Source: Ptychodera flava
Lineage: Eukaryota > Hemichordata > Enteropneusta > Ptychoderidae
Assembly: GCF_041260155.1 (NCBI RefSeq)
Contig: NC_091932.1
Coordinates: 11,271,304-11,335,303, forward strand
Length of the DNA stretch: 64,000 bases
Direction of reading: 5' to 3'
In this document: one piece after another, positions 2,010 to 56,318 of the stretch
Layout of the letters: each line of letters begins with the position of its first letter
Position numbering within the stretch: the first letter of the stretch is position 1
Position numbers and translations under genes: made by a program
The notes under the pieces: generated by a model
The model's database searches: none
The model's input: only the letters and a program-made list of their open reading frames with translations
Told to the model about the DNA's origin: nothing

Positions 2010-4616
2010 ATGTCACGCATAACGTCGTTTTTCAAACCGATCTTTTCGGGAAACAAGAATTCCACGGAGCCAGAGAACATCGAAATGACCGAGTTCGAAA
2101 AATCGGTGGTGAGCGACAATAGTGAATCCCGCCGTGATGCTGAAAGTTCAGATCAAGACACGCACTGTCGCGGCAGTGCAGACGACACTTCAAATATTGA
2201 TGACGCAGATGGAAATGGCTCGGAACCGCCACCTTCAAAACAGCCAAGAACTGAAACGAGGAAATTTATGCGTCGATGGTTGAACGATTTTCCTTGGGTA
2301 CGCTACTCTGAGGAAGACGGCGGCATGAAATGCCAAGTCTGTATCGATGGCAAGAAATCTAACGCGTTCACGGAAGGTAAACGATGCCGTAATTTCCGTA
2401 CCTCGACTCTAACTCGTCACGTTTCCTGTGCTGATCATCAAAATGCACTGACTGAAATGTCAATGAGGTCAGCTTTTCAAACCTCTGCTAAAACGGCACG
2501 AACAAAATCTCAGGATGGAATTATAACGGGTCTGAGATCAGTCTATTGGATGGCAAAAGAAAATATCGCTGTGCATAAATATCCTTCGCTCATGAAAATG
2601 ATCGAACTGCAAGGTTGTGAAAATATTAAATACATTGAGATTGATGTTGGGGAAAATGCTACCTACTCGTCAAAAGCAACAGCAGATGAGTTCATTGACG
2701 CGATTTCTGATGTGATCGTGGAAAATGTTGTTAGTAATGTCCGTGCTAGCCGCTACGTAGCAGTTCTTATCGACGAAAGTACAGACATTTCTGTGTCCAA
2801 GAAATTGAATGTGTACGTCCGTGTTGTATCGCCCACTGACTTTCAACCGCGAACTTATTTCTTTGGAAACGTGCTTCTAGAAAGTGGACACGGTGCTGCC
2901 GAAAACGTGTACGATAAACTGTGTGCAACTCTAAAAGAGAAGAATATGACAAAGGAATGGCGTTGGGTTCCGACGGAGCGTCTGTAATGACGGGATCTAA
3001 AACTGGCGTGAGAGCGAGACTGAAGGCAGCCAATCCGTACCTCGTCAACATACACTGCGAGCTGCGAGGCAGCGCACATCGGCTGGCCCTCGTTACAAGT
3101 CAGGCGGCTGCTGCCGTCGCGTATCTCAACGATGTTTATCAGAAAACTGACGGGTTTGTACTACTACTATTTCAGCCGTTCCGCAGTTCGTACGTCCGCA
3201 TTAAAACGTATACAAGATGTCCTTGATGACCCGACGCTCAAAATAAAGGTGGTTCACGCTGTTCGCTGGTTTTCTTTTTATGGTGCATGAGATGCCGTTT
3301 ACCGTAGCTGGGATGCATTGATAACCTACGCTTCTGAAACCGGTGATCGCGATCCGACAGCGAAAGGGTTTGGAAAAAAACTGACTAACTATGAATTTAT
3401 TGCAACAATGCATTTTTTTAATGGATGTAATGCCCCCATACAGAGCTCAGTCTTGTTTTTCAAAAGCAAGATATTGATATCAGTACCATTCGACCAGCAG
3501 TAGATGCAGTTACTAGTACTACTAGTAGGCTAAACGTCAGTTAGAATTTTTTTTAAACTGAAGACGGTCACTATTTGAAGCTCTTCTTGTCCTCATTAAA
3601 GAAGAACTCTTCAGACTCGTATGAATTGAATGGCCATGTAATCAGTTACTCTAATGCACAGGAAACTAAATTTAGAAAAGTCAGGGCAGATTTCATCACC
3701 TAAATTAATTTAATTCAGCAACTGGATTAAAGATTTCCAACACACTCTACCAATATTATTGATTCATTTGCAGTATTGTCTCTTCGCACTCTGTCATTTG
3801 TACCAAAAGATGAGCTGCCAATGTTTGGTTGTGAAAAGTTAGAGCAACTTCTTGATCAATATGATGGTATTGTTGACAGAGATGCCACCAGACAAGAGTG
3901 GGCTTTAGTCAAAGAATTGGTCTTACAGCAGCAATATCCAAGGGATAAATTGTCTACTTTATGGGGGTTGATTTTCAAGTTTCATCATGATCTATTTCCA
4001 AACTTATTGAAGTTGTGTGAAATTGCTCTGATACTCCCAGTTCAAACAGCAGATTGTGAACGTGGCTTTAGTGTCCAAAACAATGTCAAAGTTTCACTGA
4101 GAAATAGACTTGGACCAGACATTCTAAATAAACTCATGCTTATAAACATTGAAGGACCTTCTATCAGAGTCATTTGACTTCGACAGAGCATTGCGTGTTT
4201 GGTCTGCCAAAAAAGACCGTAGAATCTTTCACAAAAGGTGAACAATACTGAGTAAAACTCGACCAATGCAGTTATGTACTATATGAAAGGCCTAACAAGC
4301 AAAATGTTCTTAGTTTTTCTTTTCGTCTGTTTAACGTTCATATCACAAGTGTTCACTATTAAGAATTCAGTGTTTGTAGTCAGTCCTTACAAGTGTCACA
4401 TGATTGTTGCTCTGTGGGATGCTATACCCTTGACCGGTCACAATAAAGAACAAACATGGAAAATGAACAGAATAAACGTGTAGACTGAGTGGATTGTAAT
4501 AATATTTTATTGGTATACATTTTCTAAAATGGCCCCTTAAAATCTGTGATGGCCCCTCATTTTGTGTGAAAGGGGCCGAAATGGCCCCTGAAAGTAAAAT
4601 CCTAGATTCAACACTG
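2010..4616 (+). mobile_element. Decayed hAT-family DNA transposon (ZNF862-like transposase)
   Basis: The first open stretch (ATG at 2,010, running to 2,987) has an acidic N-terminus, a BED/TTF-like zinc finger (MKCQVC with downstream STLTRH and CADH, around 2,325-2,440) and a catalytic-core start with IDESTDIS. A second frame (from about 2,950 to 3,130) continues with GSDGASVMTG and IHCELRGSAHRLAL, typical of hAT cores. A third piece (3,776-4,177) has the C-terminal dimerisation segment with TADCERGFS and LRNRLGP. The core is thus in three pieces with the middle lost or scrambled, so no intact transposase is made. The right end is CCTAGATTCAACACTG, ending at 4,616, and it matches the terminus of the non-autonomous element at 5,935-7,066. 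GGCCCC motifs cluster just inside it. The left end was not confidently found. Confidence 0.85.
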
Positions 4617-8847: not shown

Positions 8848-9070
8848 TTAACCCTTTGAGAGCTGTAATTTTTCCCACCAAAATTTTAGCGCAACATTTT
8901 TCCAAATTTTATGAATTTTTCCTTAATTTCTTTGATAATTTTGGACCAAATGGATATCATATTTCATTGGCTACAGTTTCTTATCAAAATTTTCGCAAAA
9001 ATCTGAAAAAAATTGACTGGGTATATTTTTTAAAGGCGACAAAAATTGACTTTGGCACTCAAAGGGTTAA
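8848..9070. mobile_element. TTAA MITE, family A (CCCTTTGAG ends), copy 1
   Basis: The element is bounded by TTAA on both sides, with inverted termini TTAACCCTTTGAGAGCTGTA and CTTTGGCACTCAAAGGGTTAA. It is 223 bp and non-coding. Copies occur at 28,777-28,997 and, reversed, at 40,072-40,284. TTAA targets and CCC termini are typical of piggyBac-type elements; Kolobok also uses TTAA. Confidence 0.8.
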
Positions 9071-10640
9071 AGACACGACCACTGAGGAACACAGGAAAGA
9101 AACTAGCACACTGGTGCAATGCCGAGAAAAGACATGGTTTGTTTGTTTATGAACCATTCCTCTAAGTGATAAGGTATTAAAATCACTGCAGTTTTGGTGG
9201 GAGACAAATTCATACTTCACAATATTGGCCAATCAGTACATACACGTCCAACTTGAAGTCACACTAAAATAAGAACTGAAAAATATATTTTGAGATTTCC
9301 TATCAGACGATTTTTCAAAATCGTATTTTCAAAGTAAAAATTGAAATTGAATATAAATGCATTTGCCAAAACGAGTTTTTAATAGTCAGATGCTGCTTTC
9401 AGATGCTGGGTTCATCAGAGCTGTGCTCAAAGGTCGTATGGGACTTGTACCCAAGGCATGTGGGCCATTGTTGATGAAAGTTTAATCATGTTTATCACAA
9501 TGCGCATCGTAAGATCTATATAAATGTTGCAGTTATGTTGACGTGATGCAAATCTAGATATTGACCATGATATACGTTGTTTGTCAACAAGAAAGTCGCA
9601 CAGAAAATCGCTTTGCATACTGCTTAAAGTAGACAGCATACTTCATGCATAAATATAGAACTGCTTTTAATCAGTACACATGATTTCACTTTACTTTCTG
9701 GCTCCTATTAGCACAGGACATTTACAATATTTCATTTTACTGAAAAAAGTTACACTATAGGAAACTTTTTGGGTCTTTGCAGCTGCAAATTATTTGTTCA
9801 ATGCCCAGCAAAAGTCACTGAAACTTCCACTGTGTGGTGAAAAATGACTGATTTGAAATTGATTGTTGGAAGGGGGAAAGTTCAAATAAGTACATGAACA
9901 TCTAAATTTGCATGTGTGTGGGAATCTGCAACATTATTTGCATACCCACTACACAAAATAACATTGTGAATTGTATGATTTGAACTCCACAGGTTATAGC
10001 AAACAGCATATGATACTAATCAATAACTTGATGTAGCCAACATAGAGCAGAATCCCAATGTTTCAGTTCGTAACAGAGACCAGAGATGGCAAGATCTCGA
10101 CATGTTTGCTGTGTTTAAAGTAGTTTAAAACAATAAAACACTGATTTTGTGATTTTGTACAACTGTAGTTAGTGTAAGTCCATCCCCATAATGCAAATTG
10201 TTCAAGCTTTCTTCAAGGAAACTTCCAACTACTCCATTTCATGGCCAAGAAGACAAAATCACTAAGAAAACTTTTGGATTTGAGAAGCAAGTTATTGAAA
10301 GTTTACTACTGGAACTTGAAGTCCAAAATGGACTTTAATCTCAATGTTCATTCCAAGGGAAACGTAAAATTATCGAATTTCACACTGAACAGGATTGTAA
10401 AGACACTATTTACAGGTTTCAAAACGACTGCACACATGCAAGCAACCAGGAAAGAACTACAAGAATTTGTAAAATTCAACATTTTTTTTGAGGGATCTAC
10501 TTCCTTACACTTCTTAATTTTGTACAATAGGATTTACGGAGAATGTCTGAAAGCCTAGAAATGCATGTCAGTCAGGAAATACAGTGAATGTCTGAGAGAA
10601 ACATGAATAACTACATATAAATAATTATATCAAGACTTAC
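9071..10640. other. Non-coding stretch downstream of RTF2 exon 7
   Basis: This interval was scanned on the minus strand for the missing RTF2 C-terminal exon, which in other animals ends near AHWVTxxxY. No convincing match was found. No other gene was recognised. Confidence 0.4.
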
Positions 10641-13600: not shown

Positions 13601-16600
13601 GCACTTCACTTTCTAGAAAGTTACTTATTTCACGATCTAAACATTCCACAGGATTAAAGCCACTCAATGGAAAACTGAACCACAAAAATGTGATTACAAA
13701 TTCATGTACGCCCTCTTGAGGCAAGGAACACAAAACTTTTGTTTAAAACAGAAACCAAGGAAGGGTAACACAGGAATGAAGAAAGTGCACGGCACACTGG
13801 CAGATTTTTCAATGAAAAGAACTGGCAGTCAGAACAAGTGCCTACAAGTTGAATTACAGCTCCTTGTCTGGACATTTAGAGTTCTGTGATGAACTGTCAC
13901 CTGTAATAATTTCATGTGACCTACAGTCAATAGTGCGAAGATAAAAACAATGCACGTACAGGTACAGTGGCAACCTCAAACCATAGACCCTATTAGGGTC
14001 TCTGTTCAAATTAAATGCAAGCAAACAAACACCTTCATTCATTTCTTTTTTAACCCTTTCACCACCATGGTTTAGCCCAACTCCATGGTTTTCAATGGTG
14101 GTTGTAAACCTTTGTACACAGTGAGATGGGGTGAACGATAATATTACAAAGTTTTACCAGTAGTATACTTTCAAAGCGAAATTCCATGATTGTGACTCAA
14201 CCATGCTGAATTGCTGAATAAACAAGTGAAGTTTTGAAGATTTACCTGTGTCTTCCGTTCATTTCAAGACCACTGACGGGGCATATATAGCGTGATTTCT
14301 GTCTGTCAATGTATGCATCACCTTTATCGGCACCCTGCCCGTCTCCGTAGGCTGGGTTGTCTGTCAACTGAAGCACTTTCACGTCCTGAATGAAGAAATC
14401 AAATTACAGCAAAGTTAAGTCATTGATTGTATTGTGTCCTTATCTATGACAACAGATTTGTATATTTTGAGCAAAGGAAGACAGGTCATCTAAATGGCAG
14501 GGTGTATGATAGACTGCCACAGGAAAAAAATAATAAGGTATAAACTTTCTTCCTTTGTAAAAGTACATCATGATACAAGTTCAGGGTAAGCATGTTTTTA
14601 CAGTGTGTCACTCTTGACAATCATACTTCTAGCTGTAATTCAAGCTAGTAATGGAGCACAAATGGGTATTTATACTAACACTTGGTGAGAGTGTTCAAGA
14701 CAAGACTGCAAATACATGTGATCAGTAAAGGTTGACCTACTTGTGACCTCACCAGTACATTTGTCTATTTGCACGCCTTGAACAAATCTGTAGGTGCTGA
14801 ACACACATTGAAGTATTTTAACATTTCTCCTTACCTTCAGGTTCCTGATGTGCTGTGCATTTTCACTGGTGGATTTGTCCAAGAGATATTCCAGAACTGA
14901 TTCCTTATTGTAGAGCCTTAAAAAAAAACACATGCACACTTCATCATAAAAATGGACATTTGCGTGAGATAATTAAATGCACTACTGGGCTCAATGTTAC
15001 TGCAAGTATCCGCTCACAGTACAACACTCTTTGGGTTGGTGCTTAATTTTGGGAGGATATATGGCAACAAGAACAGCTTTGGTCCTTTTTTGTGGCATTA
15101 CTTTTTTCTCGTGTCTCTGATACACTGAGAGTGTAAGAACACAACTATGGGAGCTATTTGTTTCACAATCTGCATTAGCCAATGAGTGAAAATTTCATAT
15201 GATGAATGCTCATTGATTATTCAATGTCCCTCTTGGCAACAGCTAATTTGGCTAACACCATGCATGTGGCAGTAGACATCTAGGCTGTTGACATACCAAC
15301 ATTCCTTGGGGGAGATTTTTTGTCAACAAATTACAACCAACTTCTCCTAATATTGTGTAGAAATTAATTGCACTTGATGCTTGTGAAAGGGTCAATTGTA
15401 TTTCCCATGAATATAACGTATATTACATAGAATGCTGCCAAATGCAATATCATGAAAAATGTATTTCAAATACATGTAAAGTTGTGAGCAAGCTACACAA
15501 AACCGACCAATTTTATCAAAAAAATATGTTGGACTCAGAGACTGCTGTAGAGGCCATTCTGAAACTACTGGTAACCTGTTCTGCCATATACGTAAGTGCA
15601 GTGAATCAACATTTATAATGTGATCATGGCTTGTATCAATTGAAAAATAAATCACCCCAGAATCATCAATTTCAGGGAACAAAACAGTTGTGAGTGAAAA
15701 ACCTAATTTCAAAACTTTCATGTATCACATACCTGCCTAACTCACAAGCCACAATAGGCTGTACAAGTGGTTCCTGAGAGATTGCACATAAACACCACTT
15801 AGCAACCAAATCCATGTCTTTGTCTTTCTGTAAAAAAAGATGAGAAATAGTAGATAGAGTTACAAATCTTACACACCAAAGAATGGAATTTGAAGACACA
15901 ATATCCTGGTTTGCAATGATGAGGGCCTTTTGGAACTATTAGTGTGCAGTGCATAATACTATTAACCCTTTTCCTGCCAGACAGTATCACTTCCCCATCA
16001 GCCAAGTCAGTAAAAAGCTGTATTGAGCCAAAACATGACGTATTTTCACCCACTTGGCTTGGTCTGTTACATCTTTTGTCCAAAAAAAATCAAGTTTACA
16101 GTTATGTTTTCAACAGCTTTCATAAGTAGAGTACATGTATTATGTAAAATACACCATATGGAATATGTTGCTTTTCAGTAATTTTAACCATCTTGACCTG
16201 GTGGTGAAATATGGACTTGGCAGGAAAACGGTTAAAACTTCTCAACCACGGGCCATTTGGGTATTTGTGGTTTCAACTCCAGACTCTTTGACGCACAGCT
16301 ACATGTAGATATACGCAGACTGCGTGAGGAGAGGTTTTGCACTTCTCCCATGTTTACATTAGACGTCCTGACTTCCATGTTTGCATTTGACGTCTTGACG
16401 TTGTGAGGACACTGCACAGGAAGTCAAGGTCATTTGAAATTACACGTCTTACATCTGACTTTTATCTCGTGTATTCATCAAATAAATGAAGACCAAACGA
16501 CAGGTACTCAACTTACTTAGTCGCGGTATAACTCGTGTAAAGCATACATGTACCTGTAAAGGCTGAAACTTGCACTTCCGCGTTGCGTTATGACGATGTA

Positions 16601-16900
16601 CTTTGCGATGCTTCAACGGTAAGACTACTTGACGATTGGCGCGGATGACGTATATTGTCTGTCTGTTTGGATCATTTCAACTACGACGCCTAATTGTCGT
16701 TTTCTCTTACAAATATAACCTACTGTACAAATATATTTATAAATCTTGCACAAAAGTAAAAATAGTTCATTCTTGCTTTTCACTGGGTCTAGCTGATGGT
16801 ACGCAGCTACAGAATTGAGCGTTTTACGTACCTGCTCTGGTTTTTTCTTCAATCGGACCAGCTCATCTCGCTTTGGAATAGTTCCTCCGTCGCATCCCAT
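10641..16900 (-). CDS. RTF2: Replication termination factor 2, seven exons, 3' end missing
   Basis: Exons on the minus strand are 16900-16832, 15827-15733, 14916-14835, 14385-14246, 13261-13183, 12673-12560 and 10734-10641. All have AG/GT borders and phases join without a break to give about 224 residues. The start MGCDGGTIPKRDEL is the signature N-terminus of RTF2/RTFDC1. The middle carries the RTF2-type RING-like domain: YICPVSGLEMNGRHRFCYLT, CGCVFSERALKEV, DVCHKCG, then EEIILNG. Exon 6 ends in a charged helix (MEERRAKAKAEK) and exon 7 is a Lys/Ala/Ser-rich linker. RTF2 acts at replication forks and is removed by proteasome shuttles in vertebrates. About 80 C-terminal residues of the usual ~306 are not located; reading through exon 7 would give a stop after GKS. 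Introns carry several TTAA MITEs and a recombinase-like scrap. Confidence 0.92.
10855..10915 (+). repeat. Three 21-bp tandem repeats
   Basis: The unit AACGTGATGATGCCCTCTGCG is repeated about three times with one or two changes. It lies in the last identified RTF2 intron, just upstream of a recombinase-like fragment. A similar GATGATGCCCTCGCC recurs at about 11,347, so the unit may mark element edges. Confidence 0.7.
11053..11265 (+). mobile_element. Fragment resembling the N-terminus of Crypton-like/DUF3504 recombinase proteins
   Basis: A 70-residue open stretch reads MATRNAISVFSDYASNKFG, then IGKLSAATLDLALTTFYAEV. The pattern of an aromatic/acidic helix, 'L...LD..L..FYAEVR' and a following basic turn is what I recall from N-termini of Crypton-type tyrosine recombinases and host ZMYM/KCTD1-like derivatives. 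The catalytic domain is absent. It sits inside an RTF2 intron on the opposite strand. It could also be a chance similarity. Confidence 0.35.
11637..11727. mobile_element. Short TTAA MITE, family C (CACC..CCATGG), copy 1
   Basis: A ~91-bp element with left end near CCATTCACCCC and right end CCATGGTGGTGAAAGGGTTAA. It shares sequence with copies at 14,050, 38,757, 43,408, 59,337 and 62,586. Confidence 0.65.
14050..14140. mobile_element. Short TTAA MITE, family C, copy 2
   Basis: It begins TTAACCCTTTCACCACCATG. The interior has TTTTCAATGGTGGT and the right end GGGGTGAACG is degraded. It lies in an RTF2 intron. Confidence 0.6.
15962..16235. mobile_element. TTAA MITE, family B (CCTGCCA ends), copy 1
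   Basis: Ends are TTAACCCTTTTCCTGCCA and TTGGCAGGAAAACGGTTAA. The length is 274 bp, non-coding, in the first RTF2 intron. Its sister copy is at 59,039-59,314, sharing CACTTCCCCATCAGC near the left end and CTTGACCTG near the right. Confidence 0.8.
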
Positions 16901-17304
16901 GGTTACGTGGTTTGGAAAGTCTCAAGTTACGGCTGTGTACTCAAAATTTCGCCAGAACACTTAGTCCGCAGCAAATCAACAGGGCAGCTGATACAGCGAT
17001 TATAAACACTGGGGCCATTGCGAGTTCTGCGCATGCTCCAACAGTGCATCACCAGAACAAACCATAAAGATATAGGGTGACAGTGAAGATAAACTGTGGG
17101 ATATCATTTATTTCGATTGGTAATTCATCTTTCTCAAAAGTCGATATGGCTACAAACAGTTTTTTATATGAAAATTATATAAAAAATATTCTAAAGTTGT
17201 CGAATGTGATATTTGCAAATATATTACAAATACTATGCACCCCAGAGCGTGAGTGCGACAGTATAAACGAAGAGGGCGCAATTCCTAACCGGCGGTGACT
17301 TCCT
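16901..17304. promoter_or_regulatory. RTF2 5' flank, probable old bidirectional promoter (left half)
   Basis: This interval separates the RTF2 start codon from the 9.28-kb transposon. It has raised GC and carries an NRF1-like motif in GTTCTGCGCATGCTCC (about 17,021-17,036). On the far side of the transposon lies a likely first exon of GALE1 (about 26,605-26,688). Without the insert the two start regions would be a few hundred bases apart, so this is probably half of a divergent promoter. This is inference from layout and motifs. Confidence 0.5.
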
Positions 17305-17313
17305 ATTTCCGGT
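17305..17313. repeat. Left 9-bp target-site duplication of the 9.28-kb element
   Basis: ATTTCCGGT lies directly before the left terminal repeat and is repeated exactly at 26,596-26,604 directly after the right one. The complement ACCGGAAAT is an ETS-type core. Confidence 0.85.
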
Positions 17314-17356
17314 CACAGGGGAGAAAAACGTTCTGCGCATGCCTCACCGGAAGTAG
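17314..17356 (+). repeat. Left terminal inverted repeat with promoter-like motifs
   Basis: It contains an NRF1-like core (CTGCGCATGC) and an ETS-like core (ACCGGAAGT). These are motifs typical of housekeeping CpG-type promoters. The same motifs, inverted, form the right terminal repeat. Confidence 0.85.
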
Positions 17357-17552
17357 CGTTCATCAGCTGTGTTTTCAATCAGCTGGACAACTCGGCCGCC
17401 GATTTCTGCGGGTTTTTTTAGCGTCATTCCATTACTATGTTGAGGTCACTGTACCAGTGATTATACTATGGCTTGCACTATCATTACACCTCTCGACAGA
17501 ATTCCTGTAAGCGTTTTTTATTCTACAAACCTGTTTTTATTTTCTGAATTGT

Positions 17553-17891
17553 GTGATTGTTAGCCATACGATTACGAGATGTCCTGTTCTTCCCACAGAC
17601 GCTCGAAACATCGCTACGAGAGACCCATGTGTTCAACCAGAAAGGGTTGGTTCGAGTGCCTGCGGTTCTTCCTGCCGATTTCCTGTGTGTGAGCGAAGGT
17701 ACAGGTGTTTTTACAGTCTGCCTTTTTGCCTGAGGCGACCGGGGCTGTGCTTCGTGCAGCGTGAGAAGTGTAACTCACAACAAAGAACCATACGGGTTAC
17801 ATACCCCGGTACGATCCCATGCATATCTCCTGTTGAGTTGGCTGCAGACGACACATGTGCTGATGAGTTGAGGGGCCTGACACTAGTGTGA
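17553..17891 (+). other. Open stretch of unknown meaning inside the transposon
   Basis: An open frame of 112 codons is Cys-rich (for example GSSCRFPVCERRYRCF) and matches no family I know. Possible splice sites lie nearby: an acceptor CTTCCCACAG before 17,600, a donor GCGAAG|GTACAG at 17,697 and an acceptor TTTTTACAG at about 17,718. Further short plus-strand segments with good splice borders occur at about 18,584-18,617 and 21,451-21,501. Together they might be a plus-strand transcript started at the left terminal repeat. Coding status is doubtful. Confidence 0.25.
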
Positions 17892-17944
17892 TTGCAAATG
17901 TCCTTAGAAATTAATTGACTGACATAAAGGTAAGTCAGTTCCAC

Positions 17945-19437
17945 AGTAAAGTTTTGTTTATTACGTAAATGTCGTCTTCACTATAAAAGTTGTCAAATCT
18001 GACTTGTGAGAAGGACATATAGAAATGAGCAAACATGTAAATGTTTGGTTTGAAGTATGAGAATAATATGCAATTCAAGTACATTAGTGTATTGTACATA
18101 TTGTATACTTATACAGACGTTGAAAAATTGCGGAAATTTCAAAAGCACTTTACCATGTATGTCACATATATATCCATAGAAAAATAGTAGTCCGAGTGTC
18201 AAATATTTACACAAATGAATCTGCACATATGTACATGTAGTCAGTTACAAAATGGAAGAGGAAGAGTTTAATTCAAAGGTTTTGACCTTAACTTAGCGAC
18301 TTGTAACAGTAATGCCTGTGACACAATGAATGGTGACACTTTTTAAAATTATTTGTGTTCTCCCCAGAGCAATGAAACAATATTGGACCTACTCTTTATT
18401 TAAGGGGGGAACAATGGAAGCTAATTATCATAAGAATTTGTTGCATTATGATGCCAATTAGCCAATACATTTTCAGAAATTCATGGGGAGAACACTGGTT
18501 ATACATCAAAATTGTTGCATGTCTTTCTCTAAGTATGTACAGTTCATTTTTAAATACAATTTTCATTCTGTCCTTTATTGCAGAAAAAGCATTGCACTAC
18601 TACCAGGGTGATAAACTGGTAAGCAATTCAAGAGATGGATGCACTTGAACTTTATTAAGGTAGGATATCATCATTTGTCTTCTCTCTTACATGGTGTTGT
18701 GAGAAAAATATGGTGTTTTAGCAATTCACTAAAACTTAAATAAAGTCACTGTACCAATATTATGCTCTCCATCAACCCCAATGAAACTATCATAAAACTG
18801 AAGCAAATACTTGACATTTGAATGCTGTACCTGGGCAAACAGTGCACCATTCTGACCCCACTGTGTGTATGTGAATCAGCAAGTAAAACATAGCCTTGAT
18901 TCACAATAATAAAATTGACATATTTCTTCTTACATATACTAAAGCCATTTTTGCCCTCTGTTTACAATAATCCAAGTAAACTCCAATAATCCTTGTCTTG
19001 GTTCAGACATATGATGAGTATAAACTGGTCCAATTTCATTTGAATGAAAACTTAGCTTTAATTTATTTCCTAGCAGTCTCATTCCTTCTAAGGGTGAAAG
19101 GTTGAGATGAGGAGATAATTCATTCAAACGATAGATGTCATGAGCTTGATTACCAAGAACACAGGACATAATAAATCCAACCAGCCATTCCTGTGGAAAT
19201 ACTGATGATTCTGGTAGGATCTGTATTGAACACTCTTGTAGTACCATTGTGCAAGCAGTAAACAAATCAATGTACATGCATTACTCCCTGATCGCATGTT
19301 GTTGCTATGCAATGATCCTTGTGAAATGACATTGTTACATGACCAGTAACTTACACATCCATGTGACTGTGGTTTTGGACATAAACATACCAAATGTCGC
19401 AAGTGGGCATATTTGTGAAGTTGAAGGGAAGATTGAC
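17945..19437. other. Non-coding interior of the 9.28-kb transposon
   Basis: I found no recognisable protein on either strand. A minus-strand open stretch at 18,939-19,277 matches nothing I know. This is AT-rich filler between the left end and the 3' end of the minus-strand gene. Confidence 0.4.
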
Positions 19438-19479
19438 TCATCGATTTCTGTTTTGCTTCTGTTTTATTTGTTTGTCAGA

Positions 19480-19850
19480 GACAGAATGCTGCTGTACAGG
19501 TATTGAAGAAAGGGTTGTCTCTGTCTGCAGTATTGCTGCATCTGGTGGTACATGGTGCCTGGAATGGGAAGTTTGTGTATGCGGAAGTGCTGAATCAGAT
19601 GGTGAAGGTAAGTTAGCTGTTTGTGTCTGTGGTATTGCTGCATCATTCGTTGAAGAGGGGGATATTTGAGTCTGAGGAAATACTGCACCATCTTCTGAAG
19701 ACCTAGTTGTCTGTGTCTGTGGTATTGCTTCATCAGTTGCTGAAGGCAGGGATATCTGTGTTGGGGGTATTGATGCATTAATAGATGAGGAATGGGATGT
19801 TTGTGTCTGCTGTGCTGATGTATTTGTAGAGGGAGAAGAAATGTTACTTT
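19480..19850 (-). repeat. Degenerate ~48-bp tandem repeat coding PQTQT units
   Basis: On the minus strand the units read roughly S-S-(x)4-DAAIPQTQT and recur about seven times with drift. They lie in frame with the large exon, after an in-frame stop at about 19,954. They form a low-complexity, probably disordered tail. Confidence 0.65.
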
Positions 19851-22615
19851 GTGTGGTGTGTGCATTCATCTCCTTGTGTTGTTTGTTTCGGAATTGGCCT
19901 GTCTGTGCGTTTGGTATGAGAGAGGCACGGTTTTTTATGTCATCTTCAAATTGCTATGTTAGGTAATATTGTATGTCATGTATTCTGCAAGACGTTGGTA
20001 GAGTGTCACTGTCAGTTGTTTCAGTGGATTCATTAGAAGGCTGGCTGTATATATCTTTGATGATGGTTTCATTCCAGCTGTTAGACAAGTGGACAACTTC
20101 AGCAGTTAGCAGAGGAGAACATATTGGACAGCCGCTTTGAGATAAGCAAGTTATGTGAAAGGTGTGGCCACAAGTGAGGCGTTTTGAAAGATTGGTAGAG
20201 GAAGAGATAGAGCAGTTCGGACTATCACAAATGAGATCTTCACTTGGCCGATGATGGTAGGACCATCTGAATCCAAGTGGAAGGCACTTTGCTGTGATGT
20301 CTGTGTTGAAAGTTGGAAGATGATATGTGGTGCTGTTGACTTCTGTATGTTGTTCATGTTCAGCTGCAGACTGCATTACCTGATTGATAATATCAAGAAG
20401 TGTCTCGGCACTTCTGCCAGCTAACAGTGTGAGGTCATGGTCATCTTTACCATGGTTATGGTGTTGCAAGAAGTCTCGAATGAGAGTGTTATGTTTTGTG
20501 TGGTGTAGCATATGTGCTTGTCTTTGTATGGTGATGCCGTCATCGTGAGGCTGTATGTGGTGTCTTAGTGATGAATGAAATAGTTCAACTTTCTTCTCAG
20601 TGATGATGTGTTGGTGATTTTGTGTAAGATGATTATAGCCAGGTAAATGGGATGAGTGATAGAGGTCATCAGAAAGTAAGCTAAGAAGAGACTTGTTATA
20701 ATGGTGTCTATTGGATATTATAAAGTATATTTCTAACCGCTTTAGCACTTTGAGAAGCATGTTTCGGTCTTTACCTTGAACAAATACAGGATAATGGAAA
20801 TATACAAGGGGAATTAATTCATCTAGAAGATAAAGCATAAACTGGACTTCCACAGATTTACACATTGTTAATTTGCTGATCACATAACGACGAATGCGAA
20901 TCCATCCACTGAAAGCCAAATATATACAAAGTGACACTTTGTAAGGTTTTGGAGATTTTGCTAAAATGAAACGTTTATCAAAAACCCCATTGCAGAGTAA
21001 CTGGAAGAAAAATCTTGCAGATATGACAATATCACGAGAAGCGTTTAAAGTGATATGAAATTGACCAACAGTTGGTACAAAGGAAAGTATTTCTGTGGGA
21101 ATACTTGTATCATTATCACTGAATGAAGCTATTATTTTTTTACCAAAGTACCACACTGGCCAGTCACCAGGTGCTAAAATAGCTTGCTTTGAGGTATATG
21201 TCTTCAGCTGTGGGATATCAAGAAGCATCATCCACAGTTTGAGAAGATCTTGTTTTCTCTTGAGTGGCTGCTCAATCTCGTCAACCAGTACAGTGGTATT
21301 TAGAGTATGGAGTTCTTCCACATCAACATCAGTGTATGGTCTTTAAGGCAGATCAAATTTAAAAAAAATAATTTACATTAAAGATATTGGTACACAAAAC
21401 AATGTTATCACTCAATATAATTGAAACATATGATATTTCTATTTTCAGAGAAAGTGTACCTTTCCTTGTATCTCATCAGGGACACATTTCATTGTGAACA
21501 GGTAAGTATTACTATTACTCAAATGATTTTGTTTATATGTATTCATCTATATCCAATGTCATGTGTATAATAGTATACACATATTGACAGTGATTAGGTT
21601 AATAGCATGTTTGTTTACATGAGGGACTGTAAGTACATCCCAAATTAGTTTGTTTCCCTCAGGTTTTGGTCATGGGAAACAGACTCTTTTGGGAAATTCA
21701 CAGGTTCTAGTGTACACAAAAGGTTTGCTGTTACCCAAATATTGCCAGTCAATATATGCTTTGTAACACACCTCATCCATTGCTTCATGACTTCTTCTGA
21801 ATATACTATAAATTGAGACAAATCTTTACTGTCACTGTCTGCACTGCAGATGACATTTCCAGTTTTGTGCAAGTGTAGATGGGTTGTCAAACTTATCCAA
21901 GTAACTGATTCATGTATCAGTTCCAAAATACTAGTAACTCTTCCCATATGAACATATGTTGAGGAATTGCATAGGCAACTATGGATCAGGTGTGTTGTAA
22001 TACATAATAATATTTCTTTAAAATTGTAACACAATAGACCACATGTGTATTCAGTGCCAGTAGCAAAACCAAAACAATGTCAAAAGGTGACAACCATGTC
22101 CCATCAAATGTCATTGTTATGTGATAAGATATTGGAATCCTACCTCATGTTCTTAAGGGAAGAGATGGCATGTTTTGTATCCAGTTGGTGATATTGTATC
22201 GGGAGACTCTCAAGGAAACTCAAAGCATAGTCTTGCATGAACAATTTGAATTCCTTTCGCATGACATGGGGTGCTATTCCTCCTCTCACAAGTATCTGCT
22301 GTCCATTTTTATAGATAAATATATTTCTATAATGCAAAAAATAGTACAATTAAGTGCACTTCATAATCTCTTTAATCCTTCATTCCTCAAATGTTACATG
22401 TTTTGATATGAATTCGGTGCAATAATTTAATGCGTTATGAAAACATTATTGACTAATGATTGTTAGCAGTGCACGATATAGTCACTATCAAAGTCAAGTC
22501 ATTATAAATTGACCCTTTCATACAATTGATGTTTATAAATTGACCCTTTCATACAATTGATGTTGGAGAAATTTTTTTCGTATAGATTATGTAATACACA
22601 TTTCACAAATACAGT

Positions 22616-22616
<1 letters not shown>

Positions 22617-22653
<37 letters not shown>

Positions 22654-22660
22654 TGTGTGA
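22617..22660. repeat. (TG)n microsatellite
   Basis: About 22 TG units are interrupted once by a GG. It lies in an intron of the transposon gene, next to a 30-bp direct duplication at 22,510-22,563 (TTGACCCTTTCATACAATTG twice). Confidence 0.9.
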
Positions 22661-25600
22661 ATTCTACAACAATTACAATGATGAGTCTGATGTAATTTCA
22701 ATTGTACCTGTGTATTAATTCACCAGCTGGCAGATCGAGTGACTCTACAGGCAAGATATCCAGCATTGTTGTTGCCATATGTACAGCCTGACTGGTTTTC
22801 AGTTCCTTGTGTCCAGAGGCCATCGATTTAAATCCATGGATATTATGGAAATCATCAATAAGAGCGAGGATGAATGCTTTACCTCTTGACTTAAATAAAT
22901 AGACAAACAAATAATTTTAGAAGTAAGGTAAATTACCCACATCTGTCCAATTCAGGCATTTATTCAATTATTCAATATGCTCAAAGCAAAATATGAGAAA
23001 AAATGATATTCAAATTTATTTGGTTTCATGATATCAGTGCAGTTGATATTTTGCATTTTCACTTAAAATAAAAATATTTAAAATGTATTTAAAGTGTTCT
23101 TTGTCATGTATTGATTACTGTATGTATGTAGGTCAATCATGCAAAGCTAGAAAGTAGTATTTACTTGTAACTTATTCATCAGTATGTCTTGATTCGCTTC
23201 CATGTTCTCCGGCAATCTGCTGTCTCTTTTTCAACAAAGTGCGGGGATGTTGAGATAGACCAAAAATGTGGCACATATCCTGCGCTTCTTGGGATAAGCC
23301 TTGCATATTAAAATAGATCCCCATTGCCTCCTGGAAGCCTCTTGTCTTCTGTGATCTGAATGAAAGAAATGGCAGATTCTATTCTATATGCATACATAAC
23401 AAGAACATACCAATAAAAAAAAATAAAATGACACTGAAGAGATAAAGTTGTCTCTTGATATTATTTGTTACTCCTGATAGACTGCACCACTGAGTTTTTC
23501 TAGAGTTTACTGAAATAGTCTGTTCTATCAGTGCATTGCTTGCAGCCTTTTTTTTGACATCAAATTATTTTCAAAGATTCCAGTAAACTGAAAATAGTAA
23601 GCATCAGTGTCATGGCATATACCTTCATACATCTGTGTTTCTATAGTAACAATAGTAATACTTCTACCAATGTCATTTTAGACTACTGCAGAGCATCAAA
23701 AGATATATAATTAACCTCACTAAGCTTTAATTTATGTGTCTGCACTTTATATACTACACTTCAAAGCATGTGACTGTGTCCAAAGTAAAAGAGTTATCCC
23801 TAAATTGCAATTGTGTTTCACCTGTAATATGCAAGTAAACTCAGGACAGTCAATATTCTCTTCTCTTGTTGCCTTTTTCTTTCCACAGACAATGATGGGT
23901 CAACTATTGCCCTGTAAATCTCCTGATAAAGATCTGGGACATATTTCTTGGCAAAATATTCCATTTTTTTCACATCAAGAACACACCATTTTGTTGTGAC
24001 CTGTACAGCATTTCCTGCAGTGTTTTTAATTGTTCAGAAAATGTCGAACCTGCATGAACAAATTTAAAAGGTACACAATTAATATATTTCATTAATAGCA
24101 CTTTAGCTGTATCTTTTTGAGTTATTTTTAATATCATGATTTCCAATCAAAAGTAACTCAAGCCAAAGTCCTTCCCAAAGTGTGGACACAGAAAGTTTTG
24201 AATATTGGTGGAGAACATATATTATAACTTAGATATTTTACAATAAATAATTTTTGGCTTGCAAGCAAATATGGCCGCCACCGGCAAGAACACATGTATG
24301 GGTTTGAATTGATAGACCTGGTTTGTTGCCATAGACTAATAAAGTAACATTTTAGAGATGATATAACTTAATGGCAGGGAATCAAAACCATAACTCTGAA
24401 AATTGGATGATATATTTGTTGATAAAGCAAAGAATAGAAACGACACAGCTATGGGGCTTTAATGTTTTCGATAAGAAGCCATTGCAAGATAGTGACACCC
24501 CCCAAAAGTAAATTCAATGGGATTGTTGCCAGTCATTACTTTGTCCGCTTGGAGATTTTTTGTAAATTGGTTGAATAAAGTTTGCAAAGAATGACTACAG
24601 TGCAGTAGGATGCATGGTGTATGACTTGTACAAATTCAAATAACTCCAGATCTTAACCAGTCATCCACTCTCAGTGTTTCAAATGTTTTTTTTTTTTCAA
24701 AGCTGAGAAAAGTATGTATACAATAAATTATACCAACCTTGCAACCTGGAAATAATGCCATTCCATTGAGTTTTTGACAGCAACACATGACCCTCATTTG
24801 TAGAAAGAACGGTACCACAGTACACGGAATCAGTCTTATTGAAAATTGTTGGTTGCTGCTTGTAGAAGACAAAATAAGATACAGTTTAGTAGAAATACCA
24901 GCATTATTCACCTGTTGTGATTTTGGGAATCAGGATGTGTATACAGAGTTCTCTTTGAATAAGATAAAAGGGGCGTGGGGCCCTCTTATAAATTCTGAGA
25001 GCCCTCTTGTGAAAATGCTTTGCAACAAATAATTTTTCAATCGCTGCCGAGAAAATTCACAAAAAATCATGGCCAAATCAGTGATAGTGACATTAAACAG
25101 TGTTTACTTTCTGGTTTTAATTGGAATGTGTCCCGGAGCATTCATTTGATCTCTCATCAATCCCTGAAATCTCCTATGTGTGACCGCTTCTTTCTGCAGT
25201 GCTTCACAACACATGAGTCCTATTGTGCAAATTTCCTATGGAGAATTCTGTGTATACCCAATCAGTGGATAAAAACATATGCAGGAGCTTGCATTTTTTT
25301 TGGGGGGGGGAGGGTAAAATTTATATTTTTTTATTTATTGTTATCAGTATCATCATTTTTGCAGAGTGTGGCAGCCTTAAAAATACGCCAACTAATTAAT
25401 TACTCTGTATTTAGCTTAAAACTCACAAACCTATACTTCATGATTTTGTGCAATGACCCCATTAAATGATTATGTTTTTGATAAATTGAAGATTAATTAC
25501 TCTTGACATCTTAGTTCACAATTTTTTTCCCAATTAAACCACCAACAGTTTAGTGCGCCCTCATGCACCAGTTCTCAATATTTCAGGTCAATAACCTGGA

Positions 25601-26552
25601 GTCAATACAGCCGAAAACAACACCGGCCGCCGAAGGACCTGTCACAACATACCCTCGATGTTGTTCTCGATTTACACTTACCAGTGGAGACCTGTCTCGG
25701 ATATTGCTGTTCCCGATATTGCCGCCTTTGATTTTCTTTGGTGGAAGGTACTGTGAAAACCCGGGAAAAAACTCCAGATCTGCTTTTGATTTGCATCTGG
25801 TACACCATCGCGTCCCCGGACGTACTGTTCATCTTCTTTTGCACCAATTTCATCGAAGACCTGGAATAGCCTTGATGGGATTGGACGCTCACATATCTTA
25901 TCACTGTGGGCCCATGGTGCCGGACAGGAACATAGTCGCCTGTTTCTTCTGATGACTGCTTTTAAATGATGTAAACAAATAAGATCACCGGGACTTTGAC
26001 AACACCGTCTTAATTCCACTGTCAAATGACATAAATTTCCTGTGCAAGTGGTTTTCGCACGCGTTTTACCGGCAAGTACACACTCAGACATCTTGAACAA
26101 CACTTCATTGAGTTTTAGAAGAAAAATTCGCGCCAATATTTTTATCGTCTGCTGCTATATCATATGTGTGTACAAATGACAGTTTCACGGCTCTGGTATA
26201 TACTGTCAGTGAATAGATCATGTAGAGGAAATAAATTCATTCTTGAAAAAATGGCAAGCGCCTTTATTATGTGCAAAGCCAGTAAACTAGTAGACATGTG
26301 CATATTGTCGCATTTGAAAGTTTGCACTACTAGCGATTGAAACAGACGAATGTAAACAAACATGCGTAAATTTAGCGCCACCCTTTTTCAAATAGTGTTC
26401 CTATTTTTATCCAGGATCGGTTTTTTTTAGGCAAAGGGTATGTTGTAGTTTAATAAAGAGAGTTGTTGTACACATTTATAGCAATCCCTTTTGCGTATTT
26501 TTCATCCCTTTTGAGAAAAGAGAAGACCTCCGTGTATTTCTATGCATGAAAA

Positions 26553-26604
26553 CTACTTCCGGTGAGGCATGCGCAGAACGTTTTTCTCCCCTGTGATTTC
26601 CGGT
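26553..26604 (-). repeat. Right terminal inverted repeat and right target duplication
   Basis: 26,553-26,595 is the exact complement of the left terminal repeat, with the ETS-like and NRF1-like motifs inverted. 26,596-26,604 is the second ATTTCCGGT. The transposon gene starts about 460 bp inward, so this repeat is well placed as its promoter. Confidence 0.85.
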
Positions 26605-26688
26605 ACACTGAGGCATGTGTGAAAGATCGGTAAATTGACTGTACCGGCCGCAATGTAGATAGTCGACCGCAACTCAACGGATCTCACG
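26605..26688 (+). other. Possible non-coding first exon of GALE1
   Basis: A CpG-containing stretch just outside the transposon ends in the good donor TCTCACG|GTAAGC at 26,688/26,689. The first GALE1 coding exon starts 14 bases after an acceptor (TTTTTCAACAG, ending 31,097), so an upstream 5'UTR exon must exist. This is the best candidate seen, but no transcript evidence is available here. Confidence 0.35.
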
Positions 26689-27430
26689 GTAAGCAGTGTT
26701 ATATCATGCAGTTTATTTTCTCATACGTACGTGAAATAAGAATGCGCCTTCTAATATTCTGGTATTGACGATGGGCCATATTTATTATTATTACGTTCAG
26801 CGAAGAAGGGGCACTACACAACGATGGTGTTGATTCGCTTTACACACATGAAAAAAACTTACCACTCAGAGTCATTGATCATATATAGTTCATACTAGTA
26901 AAGTTAGCTCAGGCTGCAGGCTGTGCCATTGAGTGTCAGCTTTTAATGCGGCGTTGAATAGCGATACACAGGTGTCGGCGCGGCAATTGTTTGCCGTTCA
27001 GGCAACGAATTTACCAGCTGCGCGCTTCGAACAAGACATCACTTTTTTGAGTCACAAATCGGGCGTTGCCAGTGTATGATCGTCTTCTGTGAGTGTGACC
27101 CTCCCAATTTGCTACATAATAGCCCAATATGACACGTTGCGCATCGGCGAGAGAGCCGGCCGGTCGGTTGTTATAGAGTAAACAATCATACAAGGAGTGC
27201 CACGTCAAGCTCCCGGTCTGTCTGAGTGTATCTTTCAGCCGCGCACAGATCCACCACAAATGCCGACGAATACTGTCTTGTGTTAAACTGAAGTTTTTTT
27301 TTCATAAATCTTACTTTATTTTATTTGGTAGTGAACTTTAACCGGTTGAAACCGGAAGTCGTGCATCAGTATGATTTTATTCAATTTACAGTCAACAAGA
27401 AGGTACATCGGAATTGTGTACAGTTGTTTA

Positions 27431-29246
27431 TGGAAGACCGGTCACGACATGCGACATGCGACCTGCGACTTCAAAACTGCGACCTGCGTCCTGCGAGTTT
27501 GAAACATGCGACCTGCGACTTCGGCATTTAGACCAAGGTGTAGGCCTAACCTGCGACTTCACAACAGCGACCTGCGCCCTGCGTGTTTGTCAAACTGCGA
27601 TATCAGTCTTGATTTGTTCGCATTATTGCTGTGAACACGAGCCTGAAAAACACGAGGGACACCATTGCACTATATTAAAACAGCCGGTTTACCGCATTCT
27701 CGCGACCAGAGCATAATTTTCGCACCGCTGGCCTACGCAAAAATCGGCCAGCGAAAGAATTCAACCAGCGATAGAAGTGCACGAATTTGTGACGGTAGAG
27801 AATTCCACAAACGAAGAGCACAAATTTATTTTCCTTCTTACGATAGGCAAACTGATCTGAAATAATGCAATAGCAATATGGTTTTAAACGTCTACATCAG
27901 AGTTAGTTTCTGGAACTTTTCTGCCCACATTATCTAAAATATTATATACACACACAAAATAATATGCACATATTATAGTATGTACATATTAGGCTTAAAC
28001 ACTGAAAATAGGATTGTAGGAGGGTTTAATTATGTCCTGTTTTACAGTTTTAACTCGCGTTATCTATAAAGAAAGTCGGTCACTGGCTATTCATGGTTAG
28101 CAAATATGTTTGGATTGCACTTCTGTCAATATCAGTATTATTTTAACTGCTTTTACTTTGCATATGTTATTTGTGTAGACAAATGTAGTCCGAAGTTAAC
28201 CAGTAAGAATATTTTTATTTTTCCAACTGAACAAAAGTTGGATCAATTCGATTTTTTGACGAAAAGTAAAAATGAAATTAGACGAAAAGATGGCAACATC
28301 CGATGATCAATCACTGGAGAATTGGAACAAAGTGGAAATGTTAGAAAATGAACGACAATAACTGAAAATTCGAATGTTTGCAATGACACTGACGCAGTTA
28401 TGATACAGGGGGGACAACTGATGAATTAAACAGACAGCTAGATGGTTATACCACAGTGAAATGAGGATAAATACCAGAGATATCTAAAAATCAAAAGGTT
28501 TGTCGATAACATAATGAAAGAAGCGAGGTAAGGCAGACGAAGAATATCTAAAATAATTTGAAATTATAATATAAAAATATAAATGCCTATCACGTAGCAT
28601 ATTATTTTCCATGCATTAACACGTACTGTCAACATAAAATTATCTCTCCAGATGAAATGAGTGAACTGGTGTGTACATGAATTTGAGTTTTGCCAGACTT
28701 GGTGAACGATTTACTAAAGCGAAAGCAATGGCTTATTAATTGATCGATGTTGAACATTAAATCTCATTTCCACGTTTTACCCTTTGAGCGCTGTAATTTT
28801 CTCCCACCAAAATTTTAGTGCAAAATTTTACCAATTGTATGAATTTTCTGTAATTTTTTGATAATTTTGGACCAAATCGACATCACATTTCATTGGCTAC
28901 AGGTTTTTCCCAAAATTTTTGCAAAAATTGGAGAAAAATTGACAGGGGTTTATTATATAAAGGGGACAAAAATCGACTTTGGCGCTCAAAGGATTAAAGT
29001 TCACGCAAGACGCCTCCAATCTAATACTGAGGAAAACACCATGAAGCGTTACGTGTTGTTGTCGCATGTCGCAGTTGTGAAGTCGCAGGTCGCAGTTTGA
29101 CAAACACGCAGGTCGCTGTTGTGAAGTCGCAGGTTACACCTAGGTCTAAATGCCGAAGTCGCAGGTCGCATGTTTCAAACTCGCAGGACGCAGGTCGCAG
29201 TTTTGAAGTCGCAGGTCGCATGTCGCATGTCGTGACCGGTCTTCCA
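27431..29246. mobile_element. 1.8-kb element with ~155-170-bp near-identical inverted ends
   Basis: 27,431-27,600 and 29,091-29,246 are inverted copies. The outer ~100 bp are identical, starting TGGAAGACCGGTCACGACAT, and differences further in are mainly two small indels. The arms consist of degenerate GCGACCTGCGACTTC-type units. A TA dinucleotide flanks both ends. The interior has no recognisable transposase. A family A TTAA MITE (28,777-28,997) is nested inside. The element lies in the likely 5'UTR intron of GALE1. The superfamily is unclear (TA target). Confidence 0.75.
28777..28997. mobile_element. TTAA MITE, family A, copy 2 (nested)
   Basis: The ends are TTTTACCCTTTGAGCGCTGT and GGCGCTCAAAGGATTAA, slightly decayed. 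It is close to the copy at 8,848 along its whole length. It lies inside the 27,431-29,246 element, so it inserted later. Confidence 0.75.
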
Positions 29247-31097
29247 TACTTGTTAGCATATTTGTCCATAACAAGAATGCTCTGTTCTCCTGTCATTGTT
29301 CAACATTTGCAATTTTTGTCAATTTACTAATATTGAACAATCACTTTCTTTTCTCTCAAAAATCGAGTTCATTCAAAATCTATCAAAGCTCTGTAGATAT
29401 AGGAACAATCATAGGCATAAAGAAGTTTGGCTGTTCATAAGCAGTAAAGTATCTAATAGGTTAAATCTTTTTTATTTTCATTTTCACAAGTGATAAAAAT
29501 AGAAATGTTAAAACCAAAAACACCGAAAAGACTTGTAAAATCCAAATAGCGACAGAAAGATGGAGAGAGACAGAGAGAGATGTAGTTTTATATTAAAAGA
29601 GGAAAGAGGAAGCAGTGAAGTGGCCGTTCAACTGACTATGATTTCACTCTACATCGTGGTTTAGTAGTTTTGCCAATGATACCCTAAAGTAACAGTTGAA
29701 ACTTGTTTCATGGCAAAGCTACAACATGTATAAGGGCAGTTGCTTATCATACTACACTTTGGCAATCAGACTGCTATCAAAACCCCGGCAGTGAGACACT
29801 TTACCTCATCATACATCCCAGTCAGACCAAAATCTTTCAACCTTGATAAACAGACTCTACTGACTCAGTCTGAGTGATAATTTTATAGGTTTATATAAAA
29901 ACATAAAAGGCTAGGTTTTATTTATAAAAATATAAAAGGTTTTGCGAAAGTTTGGCCCATTTGTTGTGTTTGATTTGATCAGCAGAACAAAGCATTCTCT
30001 ACCTTTATAATCAAGAATGAAAATCAGAAGTCACCGTGTGAAGTTTGGGATTAGAAAAGCAAATTAAGTAAAATTTACTGATACATGTATTTGAAATTCA
30101 AAATGGGCGCAGACCCTGTATTAACTCCAAGGGAAAAGCTAATTTTTTTATTTCCACTAGAACTTAGGAAGTTCATTTTCTCAGCATGGTTTGAAATCAG
30201 TCTGTATAATCAGCAGAATTGAGAAGTATTATAACAATTTCAGTGTGAGATAAACTGCCCCAAAGGCACATTCTCCAGTAGCACAATTCAAGTTGTTTTA
30301 GACTCCAGATAGTTTTCTGGTCCTGTCCCGTCACATCTTCATTATACAATTTAATTTAGTCAAAGTGCAGTATTTGATTTATCTCTGTCATATTTCATTT
30401 TCTCTGAAGATCCTGAACTTTAGTCAGTAATTGACGAATTTGAAGCCTGGGGATATGCAAACTAATTTTTCCAACAAAGTTTAAGGAATCTGTTGTTATC
30501 ATGTGGTGAAATCAAAGACATTAAAAGCCATATAAGAAATTACGTTGTGTGGTAATTTACAAGATCTCCTGGCATCCTTGACCAGTGATCCCATAATTTC
30601 CATAAGGACAATATTGCAAAATTAACCATTGTCATAGCAGCTTATTATGTGTGATTGAAGGAAAGTACAGCCATGCTAAACAGTAAAACCAATCTGTCAT
30701 CCACATTTCACAGATCAATTTTCTTTACATATTTACATTACCAGGGATGTAGAAAATTTTTGTTACACGTAGCAAAATAAATGAACAGGCGGTTATAAAT
30801 GCTGTGTGCGTACACAAAGTTTGTACAAAATGTCTTGATTATACTAAATTTCACAGCTGGCAAATTTTAGCTAACAGCCAGTGTTTTTGCCGGCTATTTT
30901 CTTTATCCCTGCATCGCAATAGATGTGCCAACAGTGTGATTATTGATAAAATCTTTCCACTGTCAGGAAGAGTTTTAAATGTGAATTTGTTTTCATAGTT
31001 TTAGCGTAATAGAAACATCCAATAAAATTCAACACAATAAAAAGAAATTTAATGGTCAAGACATATATTCATTTGATAAAATTTTGTTTTTCAACAG
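29247..31097. other. Intron sequence upstream of GALE1 coding exon 1
   Basis: No gene or clear repeat was recognised. It ends in a polypyrimidine tract and CAG acceptor at 31,097. Confidence 0.4.
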
Positions 31098-31108
31098 AAT
31101 TTTTATAA

Positions 31109-42728
<11,620 letters not shown>

Positions 42729-43156: not shown

Positions 43157-43317
43157 GGTGTGTACAAGACAGTCCCGTGAAAGATTCCGTCGCGTGCGGG
43201 CGCTCCGGCGCACTGCGACCTACGACCCTTTACCATAAAGGGTCGTAGGTCGCAGTGCGCCGGAGCGCCCGCACGCGACGGAATCTTTCAGTCTAGGTGT
43301 GTACAAGACAGTCCCGT
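43157..43317. repeat. Perfect 55-bp-arm palindrome flanked by 22-bp direct repeats
   Basis: 43,178-43,232 and 43,236-43,290 are exact reverse complements with a 3-base centre. The arms are GC-rich (TGAAAGATTCCGTCGCGTGC at the outer end) in an AT-rich surrounding. The 22-mer GGTGTGTACAAGACAGTCCC(GT) occurs at 43,157-43,178 and again at 43,296-43,317. The outer end resembles the hairpin at 45,753-45,833. Confidence 0.9.
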
Positions 43318-45752: not shown

Positions 45753-45833
45753 TAGACTGAAAGATCCATCGCTGGAGGGCACTCTAAAGTTGGGAGCGTA
45801 AGAGCGCCCTCGAGCGACGGATCTTTCAGACTA
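45753..45833. repeat. Short hairpin element with GAAAGATCC ends
   Basis: TAGACTGAAAGATCCATCGCT on the left pairs with AGCGACGGATCTTTCAGACTA on the right with a few mismatches. An inner GGAGGGC/GCGCCCTC block also pairs. The ends resemble those of the perfect palindrome at 43,178. Confidence 0.7.

Positions 45834-49815: not shown

Positions 49816-56318
<6,503 letters not shown>

Follow-up and report, generated by a model that had tools for sequence, protein, structure and literature searches.

What kind of mobile element lies between the repeats at positions 17314-26595 of a 64,000-nucleotide stretch of the Ptychodera flava genome (Hemichordata; RefSeq assembly GCF_041260155.1, contig NC_091932.1, positions 11,271,304 to 11,335,303 of the forward strand), and is the multi-exon protein encoded within it the enzyme that moved it? 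The whole 64-kb stretch is called the window below. A preliminary description, prepared from the sequence alone, had placed a transposon there, with terminal repeats identical over ~43 bp, an exactly repeated flanking 9-mer and a protein that it could not match to seven named superfamilies. We are fairly confident that the locus is a single, now broken copy of a class II cut-and-paste transposon, and that the gene on its minus strand is most likely its own transposase, probably of the DDE type.

Ends of the element and target-site duplication

The element occupies 17314-26595 (9,282 bp), and its coordinates are exact. The ends and their flanks are listed here by position in the window.

17305-17313, no strand: left copy of the target-site duplication, ATTTCCGGT, an exact 9/9 match to 26596-26604
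17314-17356, plus strand: left terminal inverted repeat (TIR), 43 bp, 43/43 identical to the right end
26553-26595, minus strand: right TIR, 43 bp, 43/43 identical to the left end
26596-26604, no strand: right copy of the target-site duplication, ATTTCCGGT, an exact 9/9 match to the left copy

The first and last 43 bases of the element, CACAGGGGAGAAAAACGTTCTGCGCATGCCTCACCGGAAGTAG, are perfect inverted repeats, and beyond them two mismatches are followed by five more matching bases. The window contains ATTTCCGGT only at 17305 and 26596, and no copy of its reverse complement; the chance of a 9/9 match between two given flanks is 4^-9, or ~4e-6. When the first 20 bp of the TIR were searched at up to three mismatches, only the two ends of the element were recovered from the window, and none from 100 shuffles. 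The borders, the identical terminal repeats and the repeated 9-mer of the preliminary description were all confirmed, and with TIRs (43/43 bp) and a flanking duplication (9/9 bp) the element is a class II TIR transposon. No second copy with the same ends was found within the window, and the 400-bp ends shared no 10- or 11-bp word outside the TIRs that would mark subterminal repeats. The 43 identical bases at both ends give only a loose limit on the age of the insertion.

The outer T/A bases beside the TIRs are also complementary, and with this pair the arms can be counted as 51 nt at 96% identity, from 17313 to 26596; the target duplication would then be 7 bp (TTTCCGG) and the ends would begin TCACAGGG. 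Two chance matches would be required for this parse to account for the 9-bp direct repeat, and we consider it very improbable. The 9-bp duplication is the simplest parse and is strongly preferred because it needs no coincidence. A transposase acting on such ends would pair them, excise the element and join it to target strands staggered by 9 bp, with host gap repair then producing the ATTTCCGGT duplications.

The minus-strand gene and its protein

A 462-codon frame is open from stop to stop between 21342 and 19954 on the minus strand; in 300 first-order Markov simulations of the element, the longest frame averaged 119 codons and never exceeded 190. The 462-codon frame contains the last exon of a proposed chain that lies entirely between the TIRs and covers about two thirds of the element. 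The exons, with the evidence for each in brackets, and the frame that follows them are as follows.

25682-26091, minus strand: exon 1, with the ATG, a Cys/His-rich N-terminal domain and RPGTRWCTRC; frameshift near 25825 (reading frames, donor score 6.6, Cys/His positions)
24738-24858, minus strand: exon 2 (phase agrees with both neighbouring exons for the chosen donor)
23822-24049, minus strand: exon 3, with ERKRQQEKR; frameshift near 23985 (reading frames, phase)
23165-23355, minus strand: exon 4; frameshift near 23200 (reading frames, phase)
22708-22889, minus strand: exon 5, with LIDDFHNIH, a tentative site of the first catalytic Asp (reading frames, phase; catalytic role putative)
22144-22326, minus strand: exon 6 (reading frames, phase)
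21735-21796, minus strand: exon 7, with HEAMDEVCYKAY; join to exon 8 phase-incompatible with the better donor (reading frames, splice scores)
19954-21340, minus strand: exon 8, with GDWP, VGQFHITLN, FSGW, EKKVELFHSSLR and a RING-H2 finger; ends at TAG (462-codon open frame, RING-H2 ligand order)
19438-19953, minus strand: same frame continued past the exon 8 TAG for 171 codons, with abundant Gln, Ser and Thr; coding status unsure (open frame over a 45-bp repeat)

All motifs named in the preliminary description are present on the minus strand; its wording that they form a reproducible set was not borne out, one copy having been seen. Three frameshifts interrupt the coding region, in exons 1, 3 and 4, at each of which a change of frame is needed to keep the coding motifs together, and one exon join (7-8) is out of phase with its better donor. 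No intact protein could be made from the copy as read, a point that the preliminary description did not mention; decay after insertion or errors in the assembly could each account for the breaks. With its ends intact and its coding region broken, the element would depend for any movement on enzyme from an intact relative. The 45-bp repeat (3.5 copies, 66% matches) occupies 19622-19778, within the reading frame or next to it, ~2.3 kb from the left TIR. The length of the 171-codon tail falls inside the simulated range (maximum 190), and the tail may be either non-coding or a part that the protein has lost.

Reading through the breaks, with an X at each, gives a protein of 1,097 residues with the tail and 897 without it. 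Its N-terminus, with 15 Cys or His residues in 138 positions, would be a zinc domain whose probable role is to bind the 43-bp ends. For the large central region the likely reading is an RNase H-like DDE catalytic domain that carries a long insert; the C-terminal finger would be the third part of the transposase. The finger fits RING-H2, C-x4-C-x13-C-x-H-x2-H-x2-C-x5-C-x2-C, with the ligand order C-C-C-H-H-C-C-C; a C-x4-C start is unusual for RING-H2. The C4HC3 pattern of PHD fingers gave no match in the stitched protein. Candidate catalytic positions were picked by eye: LIDDFHNIH may tentatively hold the first Asp, GDWP could hold the second, VGQFHITLN, which begins 33 residues past GDWP, a C/DxxH-like position, and EKKVELFHSSLR, which begins 190 residues past GDWP, the Glu. 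The putative catalytic residues would be 190 (D-D) and 193 (D-E) residues apart. According to passages of the Dada paper (PMC3706591), the second Asp of hAT, Kolobok, P, MuDR and Dada transposases is followed by a C/DxxH motif. VGQFHITLN after GDWP recalls it, a likeness seen by eye and not by profile.

The stitched protein and 30 of the 43 open reading frames (ORFs) of at least 60 residues in 17200-26700 were scanned against profile models, and for the 897-residue protein Pfam returned only sub-threshold RING matches (best PF23412, E 1.4e-4, 22.0 bits against a cut-off of 27.3) and NCBIfam no match. Six protein pieces of the element gave nothing near cut-off in Pfam. The statement of the preliminary description that the protein could not be matched to the superfamilies it lists held in that nothing exceeded the cut-off in Pfam or NCBIfam, and it was through the models in these two collections only that likeness to hAT, piggyBac, Mutator, Merlin, P, Academ and Zisupton was judged. 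Other sub-threshold Pfam matches were taken as chance, namely DUF5869 (E 0.014), TMEM239 (E 0.01), Transgly (E 0.025), Rad54_N (E 0.048) and zf-C5HC2 (E 0.17). Weak matches in the Protein Data Bank (RING proteins from E 0.016, haemoglobins, p300 and Lon protease) were taken as the finger or chance. Kinship with DUF6589 was considered and is not claimed, there being no reported Pfam match and nothing in the literature searched.

Several observations weigh against reading this gene as a transposase. No transposase, RNase H-like nuclease, helicase or DNA-binding model in Pfam or NCBIfam was above cut-off. At 190 residues the putative D-D distance is long, and another Asp could serve as the first. 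AlphaFold2 models from a single sequence were unusable for a fold search for both exon 8 and the RING piece (mean predicted local distance difference test scores 34.3 and 47.4). Given the frame at each exon edge, six of the seven introns are phase-compatible (1-2, 2-3, 3-4, 4-5, 5-6 and 6-7), which counts as support and not as an independent test because the splice sites were picked by eye and partly for fit; the 7-8 join is out of phase with its better donor. Scored with a rough vertebrate-like matrix, the splice sites were mixed, with a strong donor at 25681 (6.6) and acceptor at 23355 (6.2) and weak sites elsewhere, in several introns, including an exon 8 acceptor of -3.3. A crude chain finder run over the whole minus strand returned a different exon chain, in which only the ATG (26091), one donor (25681), two acceptors (24049 and 22326) and the final stop agreed with the chain above; because of the frameshifts it could not have followed that chain throughout. 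A single copy was seen.

Alternatively, the element may be non-autonomous, its protein being a captured host gene, such as a RING-finger protein, and its transposase being encoded elsewhere. In favour of this are the lack of a recognised transposase domain, the frequency of RING-H2 fingers among host proteins and the general ability of large elements to capture genes. Against it, the exon chain takes up about two thirds of the element's length, and a host gene is usually recognisable, whereas beyond the finger this protein gave only weak Pfam and Protein Data Bank matches, taken as chance. We regard capture as improbable and keep to the reading of the protein as the element's own transposase.

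Comparison with known transposon superfamilies

The element was filed as a TIR cut-and-paste transposon with no superfamily assigned, because Rehavkus lacks a fit to the finger (PHD), AcademH lacks a fit to the helicase or nuclease, and Dada differs in duplication length and target; Rehavkus and Academ each fail one tested feature. The duplication length does not decide among them. In the portions of the literature consulted, duplications are given as 8-11 bp for Mutator-like elements and 9 bp for Rehavkus (PMC6446971) and as 9 or 10 bp for AcademH (PMC10045372), so a 9-bp duplication is not distinctive; the Rehavkus and AcademH lengths had not been weighed in the preliminary description.

An element of the Rehavkus type, as a divergent member of the Mutator-like group, would combine a large zinc-finger protein with a minisatellite. 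The parts of PMC6446971 that describe Rehavkus list TIRs of 26-400 bp, one ORF, a PHD finger and a 'Minisatellite in Cterm', and a length of 9.5 kb is given for Rehavkus-1_TC in a passage of PMC10218199. The present element shares the 9-bp duplication, a 43-bp TIR that lies within the range, the large size, a C-terminal zinc finger and a repeat beside the C-terminus. It differs in a finger with RING-H2 and not PHD C4HC3 spacing, in termini without satellite (the Rehavkus minisatellite stands before the 3' TIR; here the 3.5-copy, 45-bp repeat lies ~2.3 kb from the left TIR and none is in the termini) and in the lack of a Pfam Mutator-like element (MULE) match, and the hosts tabulated in PMC6446971 are arthropods and annelids. 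The MULE transposase domain gave no Pfam match at E <=10 in the stitched protein or its pieces, in a one-sequence search whose filters drop weak matches and which leaves room for remote kinship. For Mutator-like elements as a whole, the likeness is in the 8-11 bp duplications and the TIRs, and the difference is again the missing Pfam MULE match in the scanned ORFs, protein and pieces. A Rehavkus-type origin is accordingly held to be rather unlikely.

An AcademH-like, divergent Academ element is also unlikely, if a little easier to entertain. Its 9-10 bp duplications (PMC10045372, in part) fit the 9 bp here, and the title of the original paper names animals and fungi. The same source, as far as its passages go, describes two Academ lineages (AcademH and AcademX) as encoding a helicase or nuclease (PMC10045372), whereas no helicase or nuclease was above cut-off in the scanned ORFs or the stitched protein; the nearest was the Rad54_N match (14.3 bits against a cut-off of 27.5) in a frame overlapping exon 1. 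AcademH was compared by its description.

Dada resembles the element in its size of ~9 kb, many exons, a protein of more than 1,000 residues, N- and C-terminal zinc motifs and, by eye, a C/DxxH-like motif; the passages of PMC3706591 give 8,963 bp, 11 exons and 1,402 residues for Dada-U6_DR. They also give 6-7 bp duplications, small RNA gene targets, U6 and U1 families without TIRs, and CCCC and CCHC fingers (PMC3706591), against 9 bp, TIRs and a RING-H2 finger here. Rfam gave no match at gathering score within the window.

That the element represents an undescribed superfamily is a tentative possibility, on the doubtful side. Such a superfamily would be marked by 43-bp CACAGGGG ends, 9-bp duplications and a transposase of ~900-1,100 residues, in which a Cys/His zinc domain at the N-terminus and a RING-H2 finger at the C-terminus flank a GDWP/FHITLN/FHSSLR catalytic core; a second, convergent gene may also belong to it. 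Neither the protein scans nor a search for exact matches to the TIR's first 20 bp confirmed a relative in IMG/VR; no relative of the protein was found in GTDB genomes, and no match in phages (exon 8 as query) or plasmids (529-residue core as query). The collections searched were viral, prokaryotic, phage, plasmid and Protein Data Bank sets and not animal genomes, and absence from them therefore says little on rarity. Inside the window no further copy of the protein was found, with one stray match at E 3.5. No published description of the family was found in the literature searched, which consisted of passages with partial coverage and without Repbase entries.

The preliminary interpretation thus stands for the TIR transposon, its 9-bp duplication and a multi-exon protein without a model match above cut-off; the suggestion that the locus could define a transposon group is not supported by one copy and a duplication length that is not distinctive. 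The defined ends and target duplication place an orphan protein within a mobile element. Should homologues elsewhere bear the same kind of ends, 'uncharacterised' RING-bearing proteins of this type could be recognised as transposases, and the 24 eukaryotic DNA transposon superfamilies counted in Repbase (PMC12730594, in part) would be joined by a further lineage. With one broken copy at present, the value of the locus is that of a lead.

Insertion site, candidate second gene and other features

The setting near RTF2 and a candidate second gene converging on the minus-strand gene are new relative to the preliminary description.

15675-16900, minus strand: start of the RTF2 (replication termination factor 2) gene, with its ATG at 16900 (Pfam Rtf2 match)
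17468-19607, plus strand: candidate second gene, exons ~17468-17506, 17599-17698 (or to 17704), 18584-18618 and 19479-19607 (splice scores, chain scores)

On the minus strand of the left flank, MGCDGGTIPKRDELVRL... joined to the next exon gave the Pfam Rtf2 match (PF04641, E 7.3e-22), and the ATG lies 405 bp from the duplication. In 3 kb of joined flanks, ~1 kb on either side of the site held mostly 6-14 CpG per 150 bp, against 1-4 farther out. Because of this distance and the CpG-rich stretch, the insertion is placed upstream of RTF2 and may lie within its promoter. The TIR contains CCGGAAGT and GCGCATGC, which we take to resemble ETS and NRF1 sites; a promoter role for the element ends is a guess.

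The second gene would start at the left end and run from an ATG at 17468 through donor 17507, acceptor 17599, donor 17699 or 17705, acceptor 18584, donor 18619 and acceptor 19479 to donor 19608. Its strong sites (acceptors 6.8, 6.3 and 5.9; donors 5.7 and 7.8) all exceeded the 99th percentile for the element's two strands (5.1 over 1,001 acceptors, 4.4 over 1,110 donors), and its weak donors were 17507 (2.2) and 17699 or 17705 (0.6, 1.9). The best chain in 17314-19800, which has three extra weak-site exons, scored 37.7, a value reached in 0 of 100 simulations and 0 of 40 control segments of the window, for a region that was first noticed by eye and picked after the fact. Under three other settings, scores as high were obtained in 0, 5 and 0 of 100 simulations and in 2, 2 and 0 of 40 controls, with chains that differ in detail. 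The peptide had no Pfam match. A second gene converging on the transposase gene is suggestive, not established; if real, it would resemble maize MuDR, in which two genes converge from both ends. A separate exon-like stretch with a very strong donor (8.7) lies on the plus strand at 21449-21501, within intron 7 of the minus-strand gene.

Elsewhere in the window, a hAT transposon remnant was found at 1932-4177 (plus strand), with a C17orf113-type zinc finger (E 1.3e-13) and a hAT dimerisation domain (E 2.5e-9). An interspersed repeat of ~225 bp is present in three copies that are 78-86% alike, one of them inverted (8848-9079, 28776-28999 and 40063-40284), and 27429-27600 and 29090-29248 form an inverted pair at 92% identity with many GCGACCTGC-like short repeats. 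Self-complementary stretches at 43178-43290 (97% over 113 bp), 52049-52335, 45753-45833 and 61522-61583 are possibly small palindromic repeats. Five matches at 72-85% identity, ~14-15 kb apart and with order and orientation kept, connect 37017-41673 with 51257-55284, a pattern as from a tandem segmental duplication.

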